Shown: one piece after another, positions 9,716-19,402 of the stretch
Layout: each line of letters begins with the position of its first letter
Position numbering within the stretch: the stretch's first letter is position 1
Assembly: GCA_013140715.1 (NCBI GenBank)
Contig: JABFSG010000079.1
Coordinates: 1-49,101, forward strand
Direction: 5' to 3'
DNA: 49,101 bases
From: Nitrospiraceae bacterium
Lineage (GTDB): Bacteria > Nitrospirota > Nitrospiria > Nitrospirales > Nitrospiraceae
Program-made: the position numbers and the translations under genes
The notes under the pieces: model-generated
Told to the model about the DNA's origin: nothing
The model's input: only the letters and a program-made list of their open reading frames with translations
Database searches by the model: none

Positions 9716-10720
9716 ATGCGTTCTGCCATTTGCACTCTGCTCATGAGCCTCTGTCTGGCAGCGCCGGCCCTGGCCGACGGCGGACACGATCACCATGCCG
9801 TGCCCACCCTGATGAATCAAACGACCACCACCGTCACGATGAAGGACAATACCGTGACCCTCACGTTCGGGCCGATCGACCTGCCGGCCGGTCACGACGG
9901 CGATCTCGCCGCGTCCATGCCCAAACATGCCTTTCAGCTCCCCAAGGATATGTATATGGTGGGGTACAAAACCGCCGTCTTCACCAAAGAGGGGACGCCG
10001 CTCCCCAAGAACTATCTCCACCACATCCTGATGCTGAATAACAGCAAGCCGAGCGTCTCCTGCGCCGGCGAACCCCTGTTCTTTGCCGGAGCCGGACTTG
10101 AGATGACCGAGACACGGTTTCCGGCCGGCTATGGCGTGAAGCTCGCCAAAGAGGATCACCTCATGTCGATTGTCGCCTTTTATCACGGGGCGCCAGTCAC
10201 CAAAGACGTCATGGCCACCTTCACCATGTATATGGCGCCCGAAGGGACGCCGGTCAAGGAAATGGATGTCTATCAGGTGGGGGTCAATATCGTCTGCTTC
10301 AGCAAGTTCGCCCAGCGCGGCCCCGACCAGACGGATGAAGGGATCGAGATCAATACCGGCGTCCAGGTCCACAAGGCCCCGCTTAAGTTCTCGATGGATG
10401 GCTGTGTGAAGTTTGCCTATCCCCATGGGCATGACGAACTCCTCATGGTCGGGCTGGACAACCTCACCACAAAACAGACCCTACTGCGGACCGTGCCGGA
10501 TGTCGCCCTGGATGGCACCTTCCTCGAATTTCAACCCCATCAAGTCTACAAAGATAGTCAGGGATTTCCCGTGACGAAAGCGGATGACTACGAGATGGTG
10601 ATGGTGCATCACCATCCCCTACAAAAACAGGAGGCCCAACATGGGATGGGCAATTACTTGCTCTACATGACTCCGGGCGCCTGTCCGACGAAAGCCGCTG
10701 CACCAATCGCTAAATATTAA
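9716..10720 (+). CDS. Secreted His-rich protein, Nod19/PHM-like fold candidate
   Basis: A perfect AGGAGG sits 5 bases before the ATG, so expression may be high. The signal peptide is MRSAICTLLMSLCLAAPALA, and the mature N-terminus begins DGGHDHHAVP. The segment FTKEGTPLPKNYLHHILMLNN resembles the HH motif of SURNod19 and copper type II monooxygenase-like domains. More His pairs occur (AFYHGA, PHGHDE, MVHHHP). Several Cys may form disulfides. These suggest a periplasmic metal, perhaps copper, binding protein; this is inference. A strong palindrome follows the gene. Confidence 0.6.
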   Translation: MRSAICTLLMSLCLAAPALADGGHDHHAVPTLMNQTTTTVTMKDNTVTLTFGPIDLPAGHDGDLAASMPKHAFQLPKDMYMVGYKTAVFTKEGTPLPKNYLHHILMLNNSKPSVSCAGEPLFFAGAGLEMTETRFPAGYGVKLAKEDHLMSIVAFYHGAPVTKDVMATFTMYMAPEGTPVKEMDVYQVGVNIVCFSKFAQRGPDQTDEGIEINTGVQVHKAPLKFSMDGCVKFAYPHGHDELLMVGLDNLTTKQTLLRTVPDVALDGTFLEFQPHQVYKDSQGFPVTKADDYEMVMVHHHPLQKQEAQHGMGNYLLYMTPGACPTKAAAPIAKY

Positions 10721-10738: not shown

Positions 10739-10777
10739 GTTCGATACCCGTCGCACAATCTGCGACGGGTATCGAAC
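10739..10777. terminator. Perfect 17-bp inverted repeat after the His-rich protein gene
   Basis: Arms 10739-10755 and 10761-10777 are perfectly complementary around a 5-base loop (CAATC). There is no T-run after it, so it may be a non-canonical terminator, an mRNA-stabilising hairpin or a protein site. Confidence 0.5.
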
Positions 10778-11051: not shown

Positions 11052-14000
11052 ATGCCGCAGAGTGAGCCGATTGCCATCCTGATTATCAGCGATCACGCTG
11101 AATCCATTAAACTCGTCACCATCAGTCTTCGAGGATTCTTTCCTGGCTGCCTCGTGGACGTCGCCTATTCCTCAGAGGAAGCCCGCACATGGTCGCCGAG
11201 GCGCGAATGGACCATCATCCTCCTCGATGAACAGTGCCTCGGGGAGGGCCACAGTTCTCTCCACGGTGAGATCAAGAGTCATGCGCCCTACGCGTCAAGC
11301 ATCCTGCTCAGCGACCGTACCGAGTCAGCCTCGGCCCTTCAGGCGCTTCAAGCCGATGTCGACTATTTTCTCTCGAAGAAATCTCCGGCTTTTCTCACCG
11401 AACTCCTGTTCTGTGCAAGGGAAGCCATCGAGAAGCATCATCTGAGAGTGACCCTAGACTACGCGCAGGAGCGCCATCGTCGGCTCATCGAATCGCTCAG
11501 CGACACCGCGTACGAGCTGGACGCAAAGGGCTGCTTTATAATGGTTGGCCCTGGCATCGTCGCACTCTTGGGTTACTCGCCGGACGAACTCATCGGATTG
11601 CCCTATAGCACTCTCGTACCTCCCGGCCAGGAGTTGTCGGCTCGATATCGCCTCAATGAACGCCGCTCCGGCGCGCGGGGTACCAGCCTTGTCGAATTGA
11701 TCCTTCAGGGAAAATCGATGAAACACAACAGACCTCACACCATTACGGCAGAGGTCACAGCCAGAGGACTCTACGACCCCCTGCGTCGATTTGTCGGTAC
11801 GGTGGGACTGATCCGAGACCTCGCTCAATCAAAACAGCAAGCGATCACGATTCAGGATCTTCGTCAGCAGCTCCAACATGCAGATGGACTGCTTGCCCAG
11901 GCCCAGAGGGTTACCCTCTTATCTCAGCAGCTACACGATCCACTCACCTCGCTACTGGCACAGTCGCAACATCTCCTCTCCACCATCCGCGATGCGCGCC
12001 TGGAAAACCACGTCGAAGCTCTCGCCGGACAGGCCGCAGAAGCGGCAACACTCGGAGCCGCGTTGGCACAGGCTCTTCAGGAGAGAGCTAATCCATCGGG
12101 AAGTACGATCGACGATGTTTTTGATGAGATTGTCAGCTCTACCACTCAAACAGCCGTCGATAGCGCAGGCATCATCAAGCAATTCAGCGCTCAACTCCCT
12201 TCTTTTGCCGGCGACCGCGAACAGGTCAGGACGCTTGTGCAGCATTTACTGAGTTATGCTCAGACCTACTTGCGAACAATCGGCCGCGAGCATCAACTCA
12301 TCGTGAGCGCAGGCACAGCTGGCCCCTCCTCTATTTCAACAGACACGCCGACACTCTTTCCCCTCAGCCCGCCTACCAAGATCGAAATTGAATTGCTCGA
12401 ATCTGACAGAGTGTGGCTGGCCGCATCACCGGCCACGGCACCCTCCCCCACCGATCTCCTCGACTCGTACCAGCTGGTTCGCCAACTCGACGGCACATTG
12501 GATGTGTCGGCGCCGATGCAGGGGCCGCTTCGTATGACCCTCCGTCTACCGGCCGCTACCCGCCTTCCCCTCGAAAACCCTCAACAACCGATTGCCCTGG
12601 CGACCGCCTCGCCGACAGTCCCTCACGAAGCCACAACCGCCGCAGCGACATCCGTTCCGGCCGCCGATTCAGGCAGGCCGCAACAAGAACGTCGCCATAC
12701 ACCTCGAATTCCGACCACCTTGCCTGCCACGATCACCCTCGCAGCGACAACATGGAAGGGTACCATTTCTAACATCAGCCTCGGCGGCACCAGCATTATC
12801 CTTCCCAGCAATTTTCCCACTACTCCACCGCAAGATGCCTATGTCGTGCTTAAAACCGCTGTGGGCATACTCGAACTCCACGGTCAGACACAGGAACGGG
12901 CTGTCTGGCCCCCTTCCGGAACACCGGCCTCCCATCTCGTCGTCATATTTGATTCGCCTCGGCAAGAAGAAGCTGCCGTTCTGACCTCGTTGATCCAAGC
13001 TGCTAAAGAAGGGACTTTGCCCTTCTCACTTGAGGTGCTGCTTTCGACAGCGCCGCAACTGGAATTACCGAGTGACACTCGCTCCATGCAGGGCGAACGA
13101 GAACATTTTGATCAGCGCGAATCGGTTCGCATCGTGCTGACGACCCCGGTCAGACTGGAAGTGATCGATCTTACCGGTCACTTGCATCGCCTGGCAGCGT
13201 TGACCGTGAACTTCAGCAGGGACGGCGCCTGCCTGCATCTCAACACTCGACCTGAATTTATGAACGGTCTTGCCACGATTCACTTCACCGCCGCACAGTC
13301 CCAAAGCCACCCCGGAACCCATGAACCAGGCACGCCGGACTCCCCACTCTCTGCACGGATCATCTGGACGATTCCGGACCCGACAGCCGTCAATCAATTT
13401 CGTCACCAAGGCTCCGACCCTGCCATGCTGGTCGGCATCCGTTTTCATGGCCTTAGCCCGTATGCCGAACGAGAAGTGAGCCGTGTGATCCGACAACATC
13501 TGATGTTCCCAAGCAAATCGGAAGCCTCTTCGCAACAAGGATCGGTCATCAGTATTCTACGAGAATGTCGAAACCCACGTGGCCAAGCGATTATGATCAC
13601 CGACGACCACCTTCAGCAATCTCTCTCAGAGAACACCCCGGTCGTGATCATCGCTCCGGGCTATGGCCAGACCGCGCTGGATACCGTAGCCTTGTCCTAC
13701 TACTTGGCGTACCACCGGCTCCGCATTTTGCGATACGACCACACCAACCACATGGGACTGAGCGACGGTGAGCTTCAACAGACAACGTTGCGAAGCATGC
13801 AAGCCGATCTTCTTAAGGTTGTCGAGTTTGTGCAACATACATGGCCGACCGCCCCTTTGATCGTCATGGCAAGCGACATGACCGCACGTGTCGCGATCAA
13901 AATGGCGGTGCAATCACGGCCTCTCGACTTGCTCTTGCTGATCAATCCGGTCATCGACATACAGGCCATGCTCATGACGGTCCATGGCCATGACCTTGTG

Positions 14001-15236
14001 GCCGACCACCGTTATGGACTCCGACGCGGCATCACCAATCTGCTCGGGCTCAACATCGATGTCGATCGCTTTGTGAGCGACATCGTGACGGGCCACTTCA
14101 CAGATCTGGCTTCTACGATCGGGGATCTGCGCCTCCTCCGATCTCCCGCAGCCATTTTGACGATTCCCAGCAGCCCCCTCGGGCAATTGCCTCCCGCTGA
14201 TCTCCCGCAGGATTTTCTCACCGCCCTGGGAACCCATACCAGGCTGGCCACAATCCCAGCGTTACTGATGAGTCAGGCTCTCCCGCTCAATGAACCGCAC
14301 CCCGTAGCCTTTCGGCAAATTCTAGAACAGGTAGCCGCAACCGTCCCGCTACCGCCCGTTTCGACCGAATATCGCGCACGGACCCATCACATGCTGGCCT
14401 ATCAACAGCGCATTGAACTGGAACGGACCCGTCTGCGTCACAATCTCTCGCAGATCACCCGTCAAACTCTGCGGATCGCGCATATACAACAGAGTTCTCA
14501 GCTCGGCAATCTCCATGAGCACTGGAAACTGTTGGACGATCTCTATCGACTGCTCAGCCCGATCGAGCCTGGTTCCATGCTCCTGGACGTGGGAGTCGGC
14601 TACGGCGACTTAGTCCGAGCGACGATGGTCAATCAGACCTACCGATCGCGGCAACGTGGATGGAACCAGGAGCAGCCTGCTCACGTGATCGGACTGGAAT
14701 ATGCTCAAGACTCGCTGATGCAGGCTCGAGCAAATCTCCGCGCCTTACACCAGGAACTCGACAGCGACTTTGCGGGAACCCTCACCATTGCCCCACCCTT
14801 TACGACAGACTGGATCCACACCGATTGGACCGAATGCCTCCCCTTCAAGGACCGCTCTATCCATCGCATCGTCTGCAATCTGGCGATCCCATTCGTCGCC
14901 TCACCTCTGGCCACGATTCGCGAGCTGTATCGTGTGCTCCGCCCACAAGGGCGCTTAGTGTTCACGGTTTTCCACACCGATAGCGACTTGTCAGTGCTCT
15001 ATCGCCGGCATCTACACAGAGGAAACCAAGATGAATTCGGCCCACAAGCCCAGATCCTTCTGCAATATCTGGGACGCCTCCGAGAAGCCATTCGCCATGG
15101 GTTGCTTCATACCTTTGACCGCTCCTCATTGACCTCATTTCTACAGAAAGCCGGCATCCAGAAACCCCGCATCCTGCCTGTGCTCGATGGTCACGCCCTA
15201 CTCGCTATTATTGAAAAAGATAAATCCGCTGGCTGA
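11052..15236 (+). CDS. Multidomain REC-PAS-kinase-like-PilZ-PilZ-LuxD-like-methyltransferase protein
   Basis: This 1394-residue protein joins at least seven regions. Residues 8-125 are a receiver-like domain (Asp59 in ILLDEQ). Residues 140-262 are a PAS domain (GIVALLGYSPDELIG). Residues 285-500 look like a histidine kinase core, with His295 in QQLHDPLTS. The N-box Asn is replaced (HLLSYA) and no DxGxG is seen, so it is probably inactive. Two PilZ domains follow, with complete c-di-GMP motifs: R548-x3-R552 with N574-x-S576-x2-G579, and R689-x3-R693 with N720-x-S722-x2-G725. Residues about 850-1100 are an alpha/beta hydrolase closely like LuxD acyl-transferase (RYDHTNHMGLSDGE, ASDMTARVA). Residues 1120-1394 are a SAM methyltransferase (LLDVGVGYGD, 1177-1186; LYRVLRPQGRLVFTVF). 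No membrane segment. It heads a run of three regulators on the same strand. Confidence 0.85.
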   Translation: MPQSEPIAILIISDHAESIKLVTISLRGFFPGCLVDVAYSSEEARTWSPRREWTIILLDEQCLGEGHSSLHGEIKSHAPYASSILLSDRTESASALQALQADVDYFLSKKSPAFLTELLFCAREAIEKHHLRVTLDYAQERHRRLIESLSDTAYELDAKGCFIMVGPGIVALLGYSPDELIGLPYSTLVPPGQELSARYRLNERRSGARGTSLVELILQGKSMKHNRPHTITAEVTARGLYDPLRRFVGTVGLIRDLAQSKQQAITIQDLRQQLQHADGLLAQAQRVTLLSQQLHDPLTSLLAQSQHLLSTIRDARLENHVEALAGQAAEAATLGAALAQALQERANPSGSTIDDVFDEIVSSTTQTAVDSAGIIKQFSAQLPSFAGDREQVRTLVQHLLSYAQTYLRTIGREHQLIVSAGTAGPSSISTDTPTLFPLSPPTKIEIELLESDRVWLAASPATAPSPTDLLDSYQLVRQLDGTLDVSAPMQGPLRMTLRLPAATRLPLENPQQPIALATASPTVPHEATTAAATSVPAADSGRPQQERRHTPRIPTTLPATITLAATTWKGTISNISLGGTSIILPSNFPTTPPQDAYVVLKTAVGILELHGQTQERAVWPPSGTPASHLVVIFDSPRQEEAAVLTSLIQAAKEGTLPFSLEVLLSTAPQLELPSDTRSMQGEREHFDQRESVRIVLTTPVRLEVIDLTGHLHRLAALTVNFSRDGACLHLNTRPEFMNGLATIHFTAAQSQSHPGTHEPGTPDSPLSARIIWTIPDPTAVNQFRHQGSDPAMLVGIRFHGLSPYAEREVSRVIRQHLMFPSKSEASSQQGSVISILRECRNPRGQAIMITDDHLQQSLSENTPVVIIAPGYGQTALDTVALSYYLAYHRLRILRYDHTNHMGLSDGELQQTTLRSMQADLLKVVEFVQHTWPTAPLIVMASDMTARVAIKMAVQSRPLDLLLLINPVIDIQAMLMTVHGHDLVADHRYGLRRGITNLLGLNIDVDRFVSDIVTGHFTDLASTIGDLRLLRSPAAILTIPSSPLGQLPPADLPQDFLTALGTHTRLATIPALLMSQALPLNEPHPVAFRQILEQVAATVPLPPVSTEYRARTHHMLAYQQRIELERTRLRHNLSQITRQTLRIAHIQQSSQLGNLHEHWKLLDDLYRLLSPIEPGSMLLDVGVGYGDLVRATMVNQTYRSRQRGWNQEQPAHVIGLEYAQDSLMQARANLRALHQELDSDFAGTLTIAPPFTTDWIHTDWTECLPFKDRSIHRIVCNLAIPFVASPLATIRELYRVLRPQGRLVFTVFHTDSDLSVLYRRHLHRGNQDEFGPQAQILLQYLGRLREAIRHGLLHTFDRSSLTSFLQKAGIQKPRILPVLDGHALLAIIEKDKSAG

Positions 15237-15350: not shown

Positions 15351-16628
15351 ATGAACTTACGCCTGCAGAATATCGATATGACGGCACCCTCTTCCAGCGA
15401 ACGTTTGAACATGGTCGCGCGATTTTCGGCAGATCTGGGTTCGATGACCGATCTGACGACAATGGCGAATCGCATTATCCAAGAACTCTGTCGTGCAGGC
15501 GCCACGACCCATGGAGCGCTGTTCCTGCTGGATCACGAACAGACCTGCTATCGTCGCGCTAGCATGGTCGGCTCGATCGCTCCCGGAGTGACTCCATCGA
15601 CGCTGGCCGCAAGCCATCCGCTGCCTCGCCATCTCCTTGCAACCAATCAGATTATGACGCAAGGCGCCTCAGTTGTAGACCTTCAGGCTCATCACCTAGC
15701 AGCAGGTGCACGCGGATTCATGGAGGCCCTGCAGGCTGCACGCATTCTGCCGCATCTCAATAAAGACCGGCTCATTGCCTTCTCGATCCTCGGTGCGGCG
15801 CAACCTCTGGCTGAAGAAAGTGCGCTGGCAGAATCCCTGCTGGCCGCCCTGACACAAACCGCCACGAATGCGTTAGATACCATGATGCTATACGAGGATC
15901 TCCATCGCTCCCACACACTCATCAAACGCACGGATCGGCTCAAATCTCTTGAAACCATCGCCGGTGGCTTCGCCCATGAAATCAGAAACCCCCTCACATC
16001 GATAAAAACATTTATCCAATTGGCCCCTGAACGAAAAGACGACCCTCAATTTATTCAAGAGTTCAGCAAAGTGGTGCTCGACGATGTGTATCGTATCGAA
16101 CGGCTGATCCAAGAAATCCTCGACTATGCCCGATACATGGAACCTCAACTCACAGACGAGGACTTTAACGACATCGTCGCTTCCTGTTTATATTTCATCG
16201 ATGTCAAAGCAGACAGCCAGGGGATCAAGATTGAAAAAGAGTTGGCACCGGACCTGCCCCGTGTCATGCTGGACCGACAGCAAATCAAGCAGGTTCTGCT
16301 CAATCTTTTCCTCAATGCCATGGCTGCGATGTCAAAATCCGGCGGAAAGCTCCGCGTGCAAACGCGCAAGTTGATGAAGCCGGAAGGGAAAGTGTGGGCC
16401 CACATCGAAATCGAGGATACCGGTGAAGGAATTCAAGATGCGAATCTCGATCATATCTTCGACCCATTTTTTACGACGAAACATAAGAGCGGAGAAAACG
16501 AAGGGACGGGACTGGGCTTGACCATCGTTCATCAAATAATTCAAGAACATCACGGCGAAATTCTGGTGAAGAGCTCCGTCGGTGTCGGCACCACGTTTTT
16601 CGTGAGCCTACCCGCGTTACCCGCATAG
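15351..16628 (+). CDS. GAF-domain sensor histidine kinase
   Basis: The 425-residue kinase has an N-terminal GAF-like sensor (about 20-180) with no membrane segment, so it senses a cytosolic cue. The HisKA H-box is FAHEIRNPLTSIKTF with phospho-acceptor His209. An intact HATPase follows: N-box LLNLFLNAMAAM, G1 EDTGEGI, F-box DPFFTTKH and G2 EGTGLGL. The start is not certain: ATG 15351 has no clear ribosome binding site, and in-frame ATGs follow at 15378 and 15411. The sigma-54 response regulator gene begins 13 bases after its stop, so the two should form a cognate pair. Confidence 0.9.
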   Translation: MNLRLQNIDMTAPSSSERLNMVARFSADLGSMTDLTTMANRIIQELCRAGATTHGALFLLDHEQTCYRRASMVGSIAPGVTPSTLAASHPLPRHLLATNQIMTQGASVVDLQAHHLAAGARGFMEALQAARILPHLNKDRLIAFSILGAAQPLAEESALAESLLAALTQTATNALDTMMLYEDLHRSHTLIKRTDRLKSLETIAGGFAHEIRNPLTSIKTFIQLAPERKDDPQFIQEFSKVVLDDVYRIERLIQEILDYARYMEPQLTDEDFNDIVASCLYFIDVKADSQGIKIEKELAPDLPRVMLDRQQIKQVLLNLFLNAMAAMSKSGGKLRVQTRKLMKPEGKVWAHIEIEDTGEGIQDANLDHIFDPFFTTKHKSGENEGTGLGLTIVHQIIQEHHGEILVKSSVGVGTTFFVSLPALPA

Positions 16629-16641
16629 CAACCAACATTCT

Positions 16642-18069
16642 ATGGATACGACTATAAAAAAGCGCGTGCTGCTGATCGATGATGAGGCCCGTGTCAGGGC
16701 CTCATTGAAAGCGGTGCTGGAGCCGGCTTACGAAACCATCCAAGCCGCCGATGCCCAGGAGGGCCTTGAGCTCTTTCACAAAGAAGCGCCGCACTTGGTT
16801 CTTTTGGACGTCATTCTGCCCGGCACCGACGGACTATCGATTCTTCAAACCATCCGTGCCGAAAGCCGTACAGCACCAGTCATCATGCTGACGGGAACGA
16901 AATCGGTCAAAACAGCTGTCGATGCGATGAAGTTCGGCGCAGTGGACTACCTGTCGAAGCCCTTCGATGTGGAAGAACTCCGCCTGGTTGTCGAACGTGC
17001 GCTCAACGACCAGGAACTCCAACAGGAGGTCAAACAACTCCGGGCACATGTCGTTCGGCGCTACGCCTTTCACAATCTCATCGGCAAGAGTCCTGCCATG
17101 CAGGATATTTACACTAAGATCGAACAAGTCGCCGATAGCCGCACGACCGTCCTGATTGCCGGCGAGAGCGGCACGGGAAAGGAACTCGTTGCCAAGGCAC
17201 TCCACTTTAATAGCGGTAGGCGTGAACGACCCTTCATTGCGCTGAACTGTGCCGCCATTCCTGAAACGCTCATCGAGAGTGAACTATTTGGCCATGAGAA
17301 GGGCTCCTTTACGGATGCCACGGCCCGCCGGGTCGGGCAATTCGAGCTCGCCAATACCGGCACACTCTTCCTGGACGAGATCGGCGACCTCAGCGCCATG
17401 ACACAGGCCAAGCTGTTGCGCATCTTACAAGAACGAGAGTTCACCAGAGTCGGTGGAGTACAATCCATCAAGGTGGACGTGCGCATCGTAGCGGCGACGA
17501 ACAAAAACCTGGAAGATCTCGTTCGTAAAGGACAGTTCCGCGAAGATCTCTACTACCGCATCAACGTCATTGCACTGTACTTACCTCCGCTCCGGGAACG
17601 CGGCGAAGACGTGGCCCTCCTCGCTAAACATTTTCTGGCCAAGCGGATCGAAGAAGAGAATCGGACGCCGCAGGAGTTTGCCAAAGATGCCGTTGACCTT
17701 CTGTCACGCTATCCCTGGCCAGGCAATGTGCGAGAGATGGAGAACATCATTGAACAGGCATTTATTTGGTCCAAGGGATCGGATACCATTACGACCGAAC
17801 ATCTCCCAACCATTCTCAAAAATGACTCTCGATCCTCCTCACTCCGAGACGACACTCTGGCAGGTCGACTCTCCCTCGAAAAAGCTGTCATGGAATTCGA
17901 GCGTGAAATTATCTTAGATGCGCTCAAACGAACGGACTATGTCCAAACCCGTGCCGCCAACCTTTTGGGGATAAGCCGCCGCATGCTCAAGTACCGTATG
18001 GACACATTGGGGATAGGCCGACCAGAGCAGGAAGTGAGCACGGAACCTCAGGCCGTCGTGCACGAATAG
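16642..18069 (+). CDS. NtrC-family sigma-54 response regulator
   Basis: The domain order is receiver (Asp56 in LLDVILPG), linker, AAA+ ATPase and Fis-type helix-turn-helix. Walker A GESGTGKE starts at residue 174, Walker B is LFLDEIGDL, and the arginine-finger region is intact. The sigma-54-contacting loop reads GSFTDA (221-226) instead of GAFTGA, a tolerated variant in many NtrC relatives. The C-terminal helix-turn-helix is AANLLGISRRMLKYRMDTLGI. It should be phosphorylated by the upstream kinase and activate sigma-54 promoters. A good candidate target is the promoter at 18212, directly downstream. Confidence 0.93.
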   Translation: MDTTIKKRVLLIDDEARVRASLKAVLEPAYETIQAADAQEGLELFHKEAPHLVLLDVILPGTDGLSILQTIRAESRTAPVIMLTGTKSVKTAVDAMKFGAVDYLSKPFDVEELRLVVERALNDQELQQEVKQLRAHVVRRYAFHNLIGKSPAMQDIYTKIEQVADSRTTVLIAGESGTGKELVAKALHFNSGRRERPFIALNCAAIPETLIESELFGHEKGSFTDATARRVGQFELANTGTLFLDEIGDLSAMTQAKLLRILQEREFTRVGGVQSIKVDVRIVAATNKNLEDLVRKGQFREDLYYRINVIALYLPPLRERGEDVALLAKHFLAKRIEEENRTPQEFAKDAVDLLSRYPWPGNVREMENIIEQAFIWSKGSDTITTEHLPTILKNDSRSSSLRDDTLAGRLSLEKAVMEFEREIILDALKRTDYVQTRAANLLGISRRMLKYRMDTLGIGRPEQEVSTEPQAVVHE

Positions 18070-18262: not shown

Positions 18263-19402
18263 ATGAGCACAACACTGCCCCAAGAATTACCCAAGAAAAA
18301 ACCGACCCTGCTGGTCATCGACGATGAAGCAGGTCCTCGTGACGCGCTACGAGTGATCCTCCGTCCATTTTTCAATGTCGAGACTGCGGAGTCGGCCAGC
18401 GCCGCAATCGACGTCCTGAAATCTCACCCGATCGACATCATTACACTCGATCAGAAGCTTCCTGATCGCCAGGGCATAGAACTCCTTCAGGACATCAAGC
18501 AGCTCCACGCCGGCATCGAGATCATTATCATCACTGGGTACGGAAGCTTAAAGTCCGCCATGGAAGGGATACGTCATGGCGCAGCCGGCTACCTGCTCAA
18601 ACCTTTTAACGTCACCGAATTGCTCTCCCTGGTCAACCAGACACTCGAAAAGAAACAGCGGCTCGACTTTCTCAGAAATTTCATCGGGACATCGACCAGC
18701 CTCTGGGGATCGGAGACAGAATGCGCGCAGGCCTGGAAGGAATTATGTGCCGGATACCAGGCAATCGGAAAACTGACATCGGATCATGCATCCCAGGCTG
18801 AAGACATGCCCGATCTTCTCCCTCTGCTCTCCGATTTGCTCGAAGCAAAGGATCGCCAGCTGCTCAACCACTGTAGCCGAGTCAGTTTCTACGCTACCCT
18901 TTTGGCCAATCGCATGAATCTGACCGTCGCTGAGCAGAAATCGTTGGCCCTGGGGGCCTTCCTCCACGACATCGGCAAGATCGGATCCGCCCCCTATCAA
19001 TTTGCCGGCGATGAAATCACAATGACTGGAACATCCGGCGACAATCCTCGCCACCCGGAGCAGGGTGCGAAACTCGTATTGCCGCTAGGACTACCTGCCG
19101 AGGTGGGACAGATTATCGCCTATCATCATGAACGGTGGGATGGCTCTGGCTATCCATTCGGACTTCAGAAAGAAGGAATTCCTCAATTAGCCCGTATTGT
19201 ATGCCTTGCCAAAACTTTCGATCATCTGACCGCGGAACTTCCTGGCCGGACACCGCTTTCGATCGATAAGGCCTGCCAACGGATGCTTTCATACGCCGGC
19301 ACTCACTTCGAACCGAAGTTAACCGAGCTCTTTGCCCAGGTCGTTCAGGAATGCAAGGCATCCCTTCCTGCCATGGCCATGGCGACCACCCCTGCAGAGT
19401 GA
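18263..19402 (+). CDS. Response regulator with HD-GYP c-di-GMP phosphodiesterase domain
   Basis: The receiver domain (about 12-130) has phospho-acceptor Asp63 in ITLDQKLPD. The HD-GYP domain (about 175-370) is complete: HDIGKIG with His235-Asp236 and HHERWDGSGYP with His288-His289 and GYP at 296-298. HD-GYP proteins hydrolyse cyclic di-GMP to pGpG/GMP. Output is probably controlled by phosphorylation. It sits in a block with a PilZ-containing protein that should bind cyclic di-GMP, so the locus can both sense and remove this messenger. Transcription likely depends on the sigma-54 promoter just upstream. Confidence 0.93.
   Translation: MSTTLPQELPKKKPTLLVIDDEAGPRDALRVILRPFFNVETAESASAAIDVLKSHPIDIITLDQKLPDRQGIELLQDIKQLHAGIEIIIITGYGSLKSAMEGIRHGAAGYLLKPFNVTELLSLVNQTLEKKQRLDFLRNFIGTSTSLWGSETECAQAWKELCAGYQAIGKLTSDHASQAEDMPDLLPLLSDLLEAKDRQLLNHCSRVSFYATLLANRMNLTVAEQKSLALGAFLHDIGKIGSAPYQFAGDEITMTGTSGDNPRHPEQGAKLVLPLGLPAEVGQIIAYHHERWDGSGYPFGLQKEGIPQLARIVCLAKTFDHLTAELPGRTPLSIDKACQRMLSYAGTHFEPKLTELFAQVVQECKASLPAMAMATTPAE

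Follow-up and report, generated by a model that had tools for sequence, protein, structure and literature searches.

A multidomain PilZ protein of Nitrospiraceae: a possible former acyl/methyl signal enzyme turned c-di-GMP-to-kinase relay

Described systems and the present locus

The quorum-sensing operon PhcB-PhcS-PhcR-PhcQ of Ralstonia comprises a methyltransferase gene followed by genes for a sensor histidine kinase and for receiver proteins. The description of PhcB gives a methyltransferase and mentions neither a hydrolase nor PilZ (PMC8578825). In Pseudomonas aeruginosa, the separate c-di-GMP-binding adaptor MapZ acts on chemoreceptor methylation (PMC6370697). In the literature consulted, the quorum sensing reported for nitrite oxidisers and relatives is of the LuxI/LuxR type (PMC5767232). 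In the present study, we analysed a window (the whole stretch of 49,101 nucleotides of Nitrospiraceae DNA) that encodes a 1394-residue protein, here called X, followed by a histidine kinase, an NtrC-type activator and an HD-GYP protein. In the reading that we prefer, to which we assign a probability of about one half, X is a former acyl/methyl signal enzyme that has become a largely non-enzymatic relay from c-di-GMP to the kinase.

The plan of the Phc operon is common to the operons of shorter relatives of X in the phylum Nitrospirota (see below); the methyltransferases are likened by description, and homology is not implied. However, the locus in the window has neither the residues of an active enzyme nor a membrane sensor, and the output is the LysR-type PhcA in Ralstonia, whereas it is an NtrC-type activator here. 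MapZ and X both combine c-di-GMP with a methyltransferase, but in X a single chain carries PilZ, the methyltransferase fold and many other domains. LuxD (the Vibrio myristoyl-ACP thioesterase/acyl transferase, 1THT, PF02273) comes closest to the X hydrolase in both fold and sequence among the matches listed, although X lacks its three catalytic residues, is fused to other domains and belongs to no lux operon. PrsK-PrsR of the XrtA/PEP-CTERM system (TIGR02916/TIGR02915) likewise pairs a histidine kinase with an NtrC-type activator. The kinases match these profiles at E-values from 1e-10 to 1e-41 and the activator at 2e-132, but membership was rejected, as the scores lie below the NCBIfam equivalog cut-offs (41-143 versus 300 bits, and 442 versus 502.6 bits).

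Architecture and family of protein X

The reading frame of X is single and without an internal stop, in keeping with the one 1394-residue chain of the earlier note. Its features are as follows.

11052..15236, + strand: X, 1394 aa; receiver-PAS-kinase remnant-PilZ-PilZ-LuxD-like hydrolase fold-SAM methyltransferase fold
11076..11384, + strand: receiver-like domain, residues 9-111 (Pfam Response_reg 2.8e-5, below cut-off; conservation)
11475..11819, + strand: PAS domain, residues 142-256 (Pfam 1.4e-6; NCBIfam sensory_box 3.6e-9)
11832..12551, + strand: histidine-kinase remnant, residues 261-500 (alignment; AtoS profile to residue 402)
12687..13001, + strand: PilZ domain 1, residues 546-650 (RRHTPR and NISLGG; Pfam, conservation)
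13107..13511, + strand: PilZ domain 2, residues 686-820 (RESVR and NFSRDG; Pfam, conservation)
13542..14354, + strand: LuxD-like alpha/beta-hydrolase fold, residues 831-1101 (Pfam Acyl_transf_2; AlphaFold2 model)
13875..13877, + strand: Asp942, at the position of LuxD Ser114; Asp in 49/49 full-length long forms
14475..15221, + strand: class I SAM methyltransferase fold, residues 1142-1390 (Pfam; structural matches, model residues about 608-856)
14586..14606, + strand: methyltransferase motif I DVGVGYG, residues 1179-1185, intact in X and drifting elsewhere in the clade

A search of other genomes for the same arrangement found at least 49 full-length copies of about 1400 residues each in Nitrospiraceae, and the family occurs in nitrite-oxidising Nitrospira bacteria. 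We call these proteins long forms (53, among them the 49 full-length ones) and compare them with 50 short forms. Paper searches gave no description of this architecture, which agrees with the earlier statement that no described protein of this arrangement was known, but X is not a one-off. Plasmids searched for a homologous fusion gave only separate LuxD-like or methyltransferase matches. The architecture is kept over about 40-90% identity among orthologs and, judged on this sequence comparison, is far beyond chance. The possibility that X is a decaying pseudogene was ruled out by the full-length conservation and because dN/dS is 0.03-0.19 in the hydrolase and methyltransferase domains, indicating strong purifying selection, versus 0.6-1.0 in the linker.

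The PAS domain predicted earlier was recovered by Pfam, and the receiver only in part. The Response_reg score is 24.7 bits against a curated cut-off of 30.2 bits, and the first acidic residue is replaced by Ser13 in X and by N or S in all orthologs; however, D59, S87 and K109 are present, and D59, S/T87 and K109 are kept in the orthologs. A kinase core with an altered N-box had also been proposed, and this did not hold. Neither HisKA nor HATPase_c matches in Pfam, the phosphoacceptor histidine position is occupied by Gln (Q292; in almost every ortholog by Q, K, R, E or T), and the alignment shows no recognisable N or G1 box; for these reasons the segment is a kinase remnant.

Both PilZ domains, claimed earlier to have complete RxxxR and NxSxxG motifs, passed the profile and motif checks. 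PF07238 matches two stretches of X (2.1e-13, 50.9 bits versus a gathering threshold of 22.5), and the c-di-GMP motif residues are R548/R552 with N574, S576 and G579 in the first domain, and R689/R693 with N720, S722 and G725 in the second. They are near-invariant in the 49 full-length orthologs; in the second domain R, R and G are found in 49/49, N or D in 49/49 and S in 48/49. Thus c-di-GMP is well supported by motif conservation as an input of X, and the PilZ domains are predicted to bind it. Among the VIA-align matches listed, which the two larger domains fill, the PilZ regions are absent; this is no evidence against PilZ.

Loss of active-site residues in the long forms

The earlier note had recognised a LuxD-type alpha/beta hydrolase. 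The fold stood: Pfam matches Acyl_transf_2/LuxD at residues 857-1031 (2.6e-13), and 1THT is the closest structure to the AlphaFold2 model among the matches listed (VIA-align Z 23.9, rmsd 3.6, 271 residues aligned). The active site did not, as X has Asp942 in place of LuxD Ser114 and has also lost the counterparts of Asp211 and His241; against the NCBIfam LuxD equivalog X scores 48.6 bits with a cut-off of 420. In the short forms, which occur elsewhere in the phylum Nitrospirota and consist of the LuxD-like hydrolase and methyltransferase with PilZ or receiver modules, the match to LuxD covers nearly the whole length (E 3.5e-36) and Ser114, Asp211 and His241 are all matched. The Ser-Asp-His triad is intact in 47 of the 50 short forms and in none of the 53 long forms. 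As judged from these residues, at least one active site of X is gone.

It had been suggested that X handles an acyl and a methyl group under c-di-GMP control, for example to make a fatty-acid methyl ester signal of the PhcB kind. The LuxD-like fold does adjoin a methyltransferase, and the closest solved structure among the matches listed is a myristoyl-ACP thioesterase; however, all three LuxD residues are gone in every long form, the SAM motifs drift within the clade, and the kinase adjoining X has no membrane sensor. We rejected X as an acyl/methyl signal synthase on the triad loss, and the methyl ester reading has hardly any probability left. The invariance of Asp942, in a strongly constrained domain, is more than a purely dead site would require, and could reflect new chemistry on this residue, for example with Asp as the nucleophile, which haloalkane dehalogenases and epoxide hydrolases employ. 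Known Asp-nucleophile alpha/beta hydrolases require a His base, but the residue at the His position varies among the long forms, which makes this explanation very improbable.

The presence of a SAM methyltransferase domain in X was confirmed. Methyltransf_11 matches residues 1203-1304 (2.1e-9, 38.3 bits versus 21.2), structural matches of this fold to SAM methyltransferases reach Z values of about 20 (VIA-align), and motif I DVGVGYGD, with its GxGxG, and the Glu after beta-2 are kept. Together with strong constraint (dN/dS 0.03-0.19, among the lowest of the X domains), this suggests that X may still bind SAM or methylate. One may therefore consider that X is a c-di-GMP-gated methyltransferase which is still active, with the dead hydrolase half holding the substrate or serving as a scaffold. 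However, GxGxG is kept in only 29/53 long forms, and motif I together with the beta-2 acid in 18/53 (X of the window among them) versus 50/50 short forms; even in the genus of the window, two orthologs (L019 and L022) have motif I degraded to DVEVG/DAEVG. Across the orthologs the SAM motifs fall short of the conservation expected for an active enzyme, and we regard an active methyltransferase as rather unlikely.

The short forms adjoin a 7TM-GAF histidine kinase, together with NtrC and HD-GYP in part of the lineages. HisKA_7TM was found in 32 of 35 kinases beside triad-bearing forms (one of these cases being an Asn variant) versus none of 50 beside long forms, and thus a cognate membrane sensor of the Phc type is missing from the adjoining kinase in all 50 long-form loci. 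One genus holds both versions in the same cell, each with its own kinase type. On the tree, however, each of the two traits changes twice (sign test p = 1), and the joint loss of triad and 7TM took place only once or twice, so that the correlation carries no statistical weight of its own. Since the short forms keep both active sites and lie next to a gene for a 7TM histidine kinase, synthesis of an acyl/methyl signal by the short forms is a reasonable hypothesis. A PilZ-FabH gene is present where the short-form hydrolase is dead or missing. We tentatively propose, as a possibility somewhat short of an even chance, that the short-form operons of Nitrospirota encode a so far undescribed acyl/methyl signalling system coupled to c-di-GMP, with PilZ-FabH able to stand in for the hydrolase, and that in Nitrospira the synthase became a non-enzymatic c-di-GMP sensor replacing both signal and receptor.

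Neighbouring genes and the proposed relay

The features around X are as follows.

10739..10777, no strand: inverted repeat, 17-bp perfect with a 5-nt loop, after the upstream gene (sequence read directly)
15351..16628, + strand: soluble histidine kinase, 425 aa (Pfam HisKA and HATPase_c; no transmembrane helix)
16642..18069, + strand: NtrC-type response regulator (Pfam receiver, sigma-54 AAA+, Fis HTH; Walker A GESGTGKE)
18263..19402, + strand: receiver and HD-GYP c-di-GMP phosphodiesterase (Pfam; HDIGK and HHERWDGSGYP intact)

The inverted repeat is likely the boundary before the X operon. The catalytic motifs of the kinase, the NtrC-type regulator and the HD-GYP protein are intact, including all catalytic boxes of the kinase, whose related copies have a GAF-like N-terminus. 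The HD-GYP protein matches the NosR-family c-di-GMP phosphodiesterase profile below cut-off. The gap of 114 nt between X and the kinase leaves co-transcription as a prediction, and would fit the possibility that the kinase, activator and HD-GYP protein are mere neighbours of an X that acts on an unrelated target. Many PilZ proteins act in this way, for example on a pilus or polysaccharide machine. However, the gene order X-kinase-NtrC-HD-GYP is nearly always kept in Nitrospiraceae and is also found in several outgroups, the kinase type tracks the X type, and fusions are known: in L162 the hydrolase-methyltransferase is joined to a 7TM kinase in a single reading frame, and in L113 the fusion is to NtrC. 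An unrelated target is thus improbable.

The genome encodes RpoN. Because no sigma-54 promoter was found in the window at up to 1 mismatch, the targets of the NtrC-type activator cannot be read from the locus. The whole genome has 8 perfect sigma-54 sites versus 3 in the reversed control, with no clear regulon among them, and scans for sigma-70 promoters and for terminators did not rise above chance.

Under the preferred reading, a former enzyme turned relay, the ancestor of X would have been a fusion of an acyl hydrolase/transferase and a methyltransferase, and its product most likely a lipid-derived signal that the 7TM histidine kinase encoded next to it detected. Fusion of this enzyme to an upstream receiver-PAS protein would have taken place in Nitrospiraceae, with loss of the LuxD triad, relaxation of the SAM site and, in the partner kinase, disappearance of the 7TM sensor. 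Present-day X may be an intracellular regulator in which the two PilZ domains bind c-di-GMP and the receiver and PAS domains provide additional inputs. A conformational change could pass through the former enzyme domains, now serving binding and contact, to the soluble histidine kinase and from there to the NtrC-type sigma-54 activator; by lowering c-di-GMP, the HD-GYP protein would close a feedback loop. From the comparisons above we infer that X binds c-di-GMP and touches the kinase, in which direction control runs, and what the ancestor produced.

If this is correct, a complete signal-making enzyme would have become a second-messenger sensor, and the states before and after this change would both survive in one phylum and, within the same cell, in one genus. 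The locus would also connect c-di-GMP with a sigma-54 regulon by a concrete genetic link, and point to a signalling system not yet charted in nitrite oxidisers and their relatives.

Domains and distribution of protein X

Protein X is encoded by the following reading frame.

11052-15236, + strand: X, 1394 aa, without internal stop

A Pfam search matched PAS, PilZ (two stretches), Acyl_transf_2 (the LuxD family) and Methyltransf_11. When residues 535-1394 were modelled with AlphaFold2 (mean pLDDT 75.7, pTM 0.67, 29 sequences), the hydrolase domain was nearest to the LuxD thioesterase 1THT (Z 23.9, rmsd 3.6, 271 aligned), again the top match with Foldseek, and the C-terminal domain grouped with SAM methyltransferases. 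The earlier note had placed a PAS, two PilZ, a LuxD-type and a methyltransferase domain in one chain; Pfam supports the PAS and PilZ domains, and Pfam and the model agree on the other two. The kinase core with altered N-box and the receiver-like domain that it also described were recovered only in part: the best kinase-type signal was the AtoS profile at residues 133-402, but neither HisKA nor HATPase_c was matched in X by Pfam and Q292 stands at the phosphoacceptor His position, where nearly all orthologs have Q/K/R/E/T; D59, S/T87 and K109 persist in the receiver, but its Response_reg match is weak, under the Pfam cut-off, and the first acidic residue is missing.

The same arrangement recurs in other genomes: full-length copies (~40-90% identity) were found across Nitrospiraceae, in most genomes of the window's genus and in other genera. 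Matches occurred in 69 of 296 genomes of the phylum, and those in a scan of named genomes were all from Nitrospirota, except one record labelled Nitrospinota. Named relatives such as Nitrospira sp. CG24E, N. lenta and N. moscoviensis suggest that the genome of the window is Nitrospira-like. The conserved core of the family is the hydrolase plus methyltransferase; shorter relatives (~550-1280 aa; short forms) have this core but lack all or some of the fused receiver-PAS-kinase part. The unfused state is seen in one genome (G035), where a REC-PAS-PilZ gene lies directly upstream of a PilZ-hydrolase-methyltransferase gene. The orthologs of ~1400 aa (long forms) are a single clade (SH-aLRT 97), and one genus (G169, G190, G282 and others) has both versions, each with its own kinase kind. 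The copy of Nitrospira sp. LS_FP_2_bin.31 (L123:4441-6375) is broken across several frames, either a pseudogene or an assembly error. All domains of X are of known kinds; the arrangement and history appear undescribed, as no description of the architecture was found in the open-access literature searched, where Nitrospira quorum sensing is of the LuxI/LuxR type (PMC5767232).

Residues lost and retained

When short forms were aligned with 1THT, its catalytic Ser114, Asp211 and His241 fell on conserved S, D and H. The triad is present in 47 of 50 short forms vs none of 53 long forms, in which the profile spans only 1THT residues 17-155 and the nucleophile position is always Asp (53/53). Methyltransferase motif I remains in 29 of the 53 long forms, and motif I with the beta-2 acid in 18, compared with 50/50 short forms. 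Thus, LuxD chemistry has very probably been lost in X, and the acyl and methyl output suggested in the earlier note is not borne out. Some SAM binding may persist in the window's copy, whose methyltransferase retains motif I and the Glu that follows beta-2.

The predicted c-di-GMP-binding residues are near-invariant in the 49 full-length long forms, in agreement with the complete PilZ motifs first noticed in X: R548, R552 and G in 49/49, N or D in 45/49 and S in 39/49 for PilZ1; R689, R693, N or D, and G in 49/49 and S in 48/49 for PilZ2. Over seven pairs, dN/dS was 0.06-0.18 for the hydrolase and 0.03-0.19 for the methyltransferase; the kinase remnant had 0.14-0.44 and the linker 0.6-1.0. The low hydrolase values despite the lost triad therefore point to strong selection for something besides the ancestral reaction.

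Operon partners and possible acyl chemistry

Downstream of X, the window encodes a histidine kinase of 425 aa, then an activator of the NtrC type and a protein with receiver and HD-GYP domains, all with intact catalytic motifs; RpoN is encoded in the window's genome. Nitrospiraceae and several outgroups share this gene order, except at two loci without the kinase gene: L163:9773-13363 (G284), an extremely divergent long form whose kinase gene is lost, and L113:3448-8559 (Nitrospira moscoviensis NSP M-1), where one reading frame joins X to a truncated NtrC lacking the receiver and AAA+ start (match from profile position 31). Just upstream of X, at 9716-10720 (+), is a 334-aa secreted-looking protein without Pfam match, ~70-93% identical at nearly every long-form locus. 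Elsewhere in the window's own genome (L185:1501-1516; C23:8478), a perfect sigma-54 type site precedes a TPR-protein gene by ~130 nt, which makes this gene a possible NtrC target; a homolog (50% over 253 columns) lies near the PilZ-FabH/7TM-kinase locus of G395.

HisKA_7TM was found in 32 of 35 kinases adjoining triad-bearing short forms (a set including one with Asn at the nucleophile) and in 0 of 50 adjoining long forms or the intermediate L046. Triad state and kinase type are concordant in 101 of 102 rows; since the tree has just two changes of each trait, the association represents one or two events, not 101. At L162:8383-13308 (G327), a short form and the 7TM kinase make up a single 1641-aa reading frame, PilZ-PilZ-hydrolase-methyltransferase-7TM-GAF-histidine kinase, with NtrC and HD-GYP next in order.

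Within the order, a PilZ-FabH (KAS III) gene occurs in only 4 of 197 genomes and always adjoins the 7TM kinase, directly upstream:

L044:7158-8756, PilZ-FabH
L164:7933-9498, PilZ-FabH
L179:8118-9701, PilZ-FabH, Cys, His and Asn motifs readable as intact
L180:7973-9148, PilZ-FabH, copy cut by contig end

In G046, the X nucleophile is Asn and the gene lies between X and the kinase; in G192, which also has the gene, X has no hydrolase domain; the contigs of G395 and G403 do not include X. The gene looks like a substitute for the acyl step of X, which supports, but does not prove, an acyl-derived product of the short forms.

Possible history of the operon

Residue loss, conservation, operon, selection and the contrast between long and short forms are the observed steps of the history proposed here. 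In its ancestral form, the operon probably both produced and detected a lipid-derived signal, a product that we infer, on a plan like that of the PhcB-PhcS system, in which a methyltransferase occurs with a sensor kinase and receiver proteins (PMC8578825). In Nitrospiraceae, the chemistry would have been lost from X and the membrane sensor from the kinase, while the residues for putative c-di-GMP binding by X were retained. We give this mechanism a probability of about one half; under it, X would most likely act directly on the kinase, presumably by contact.
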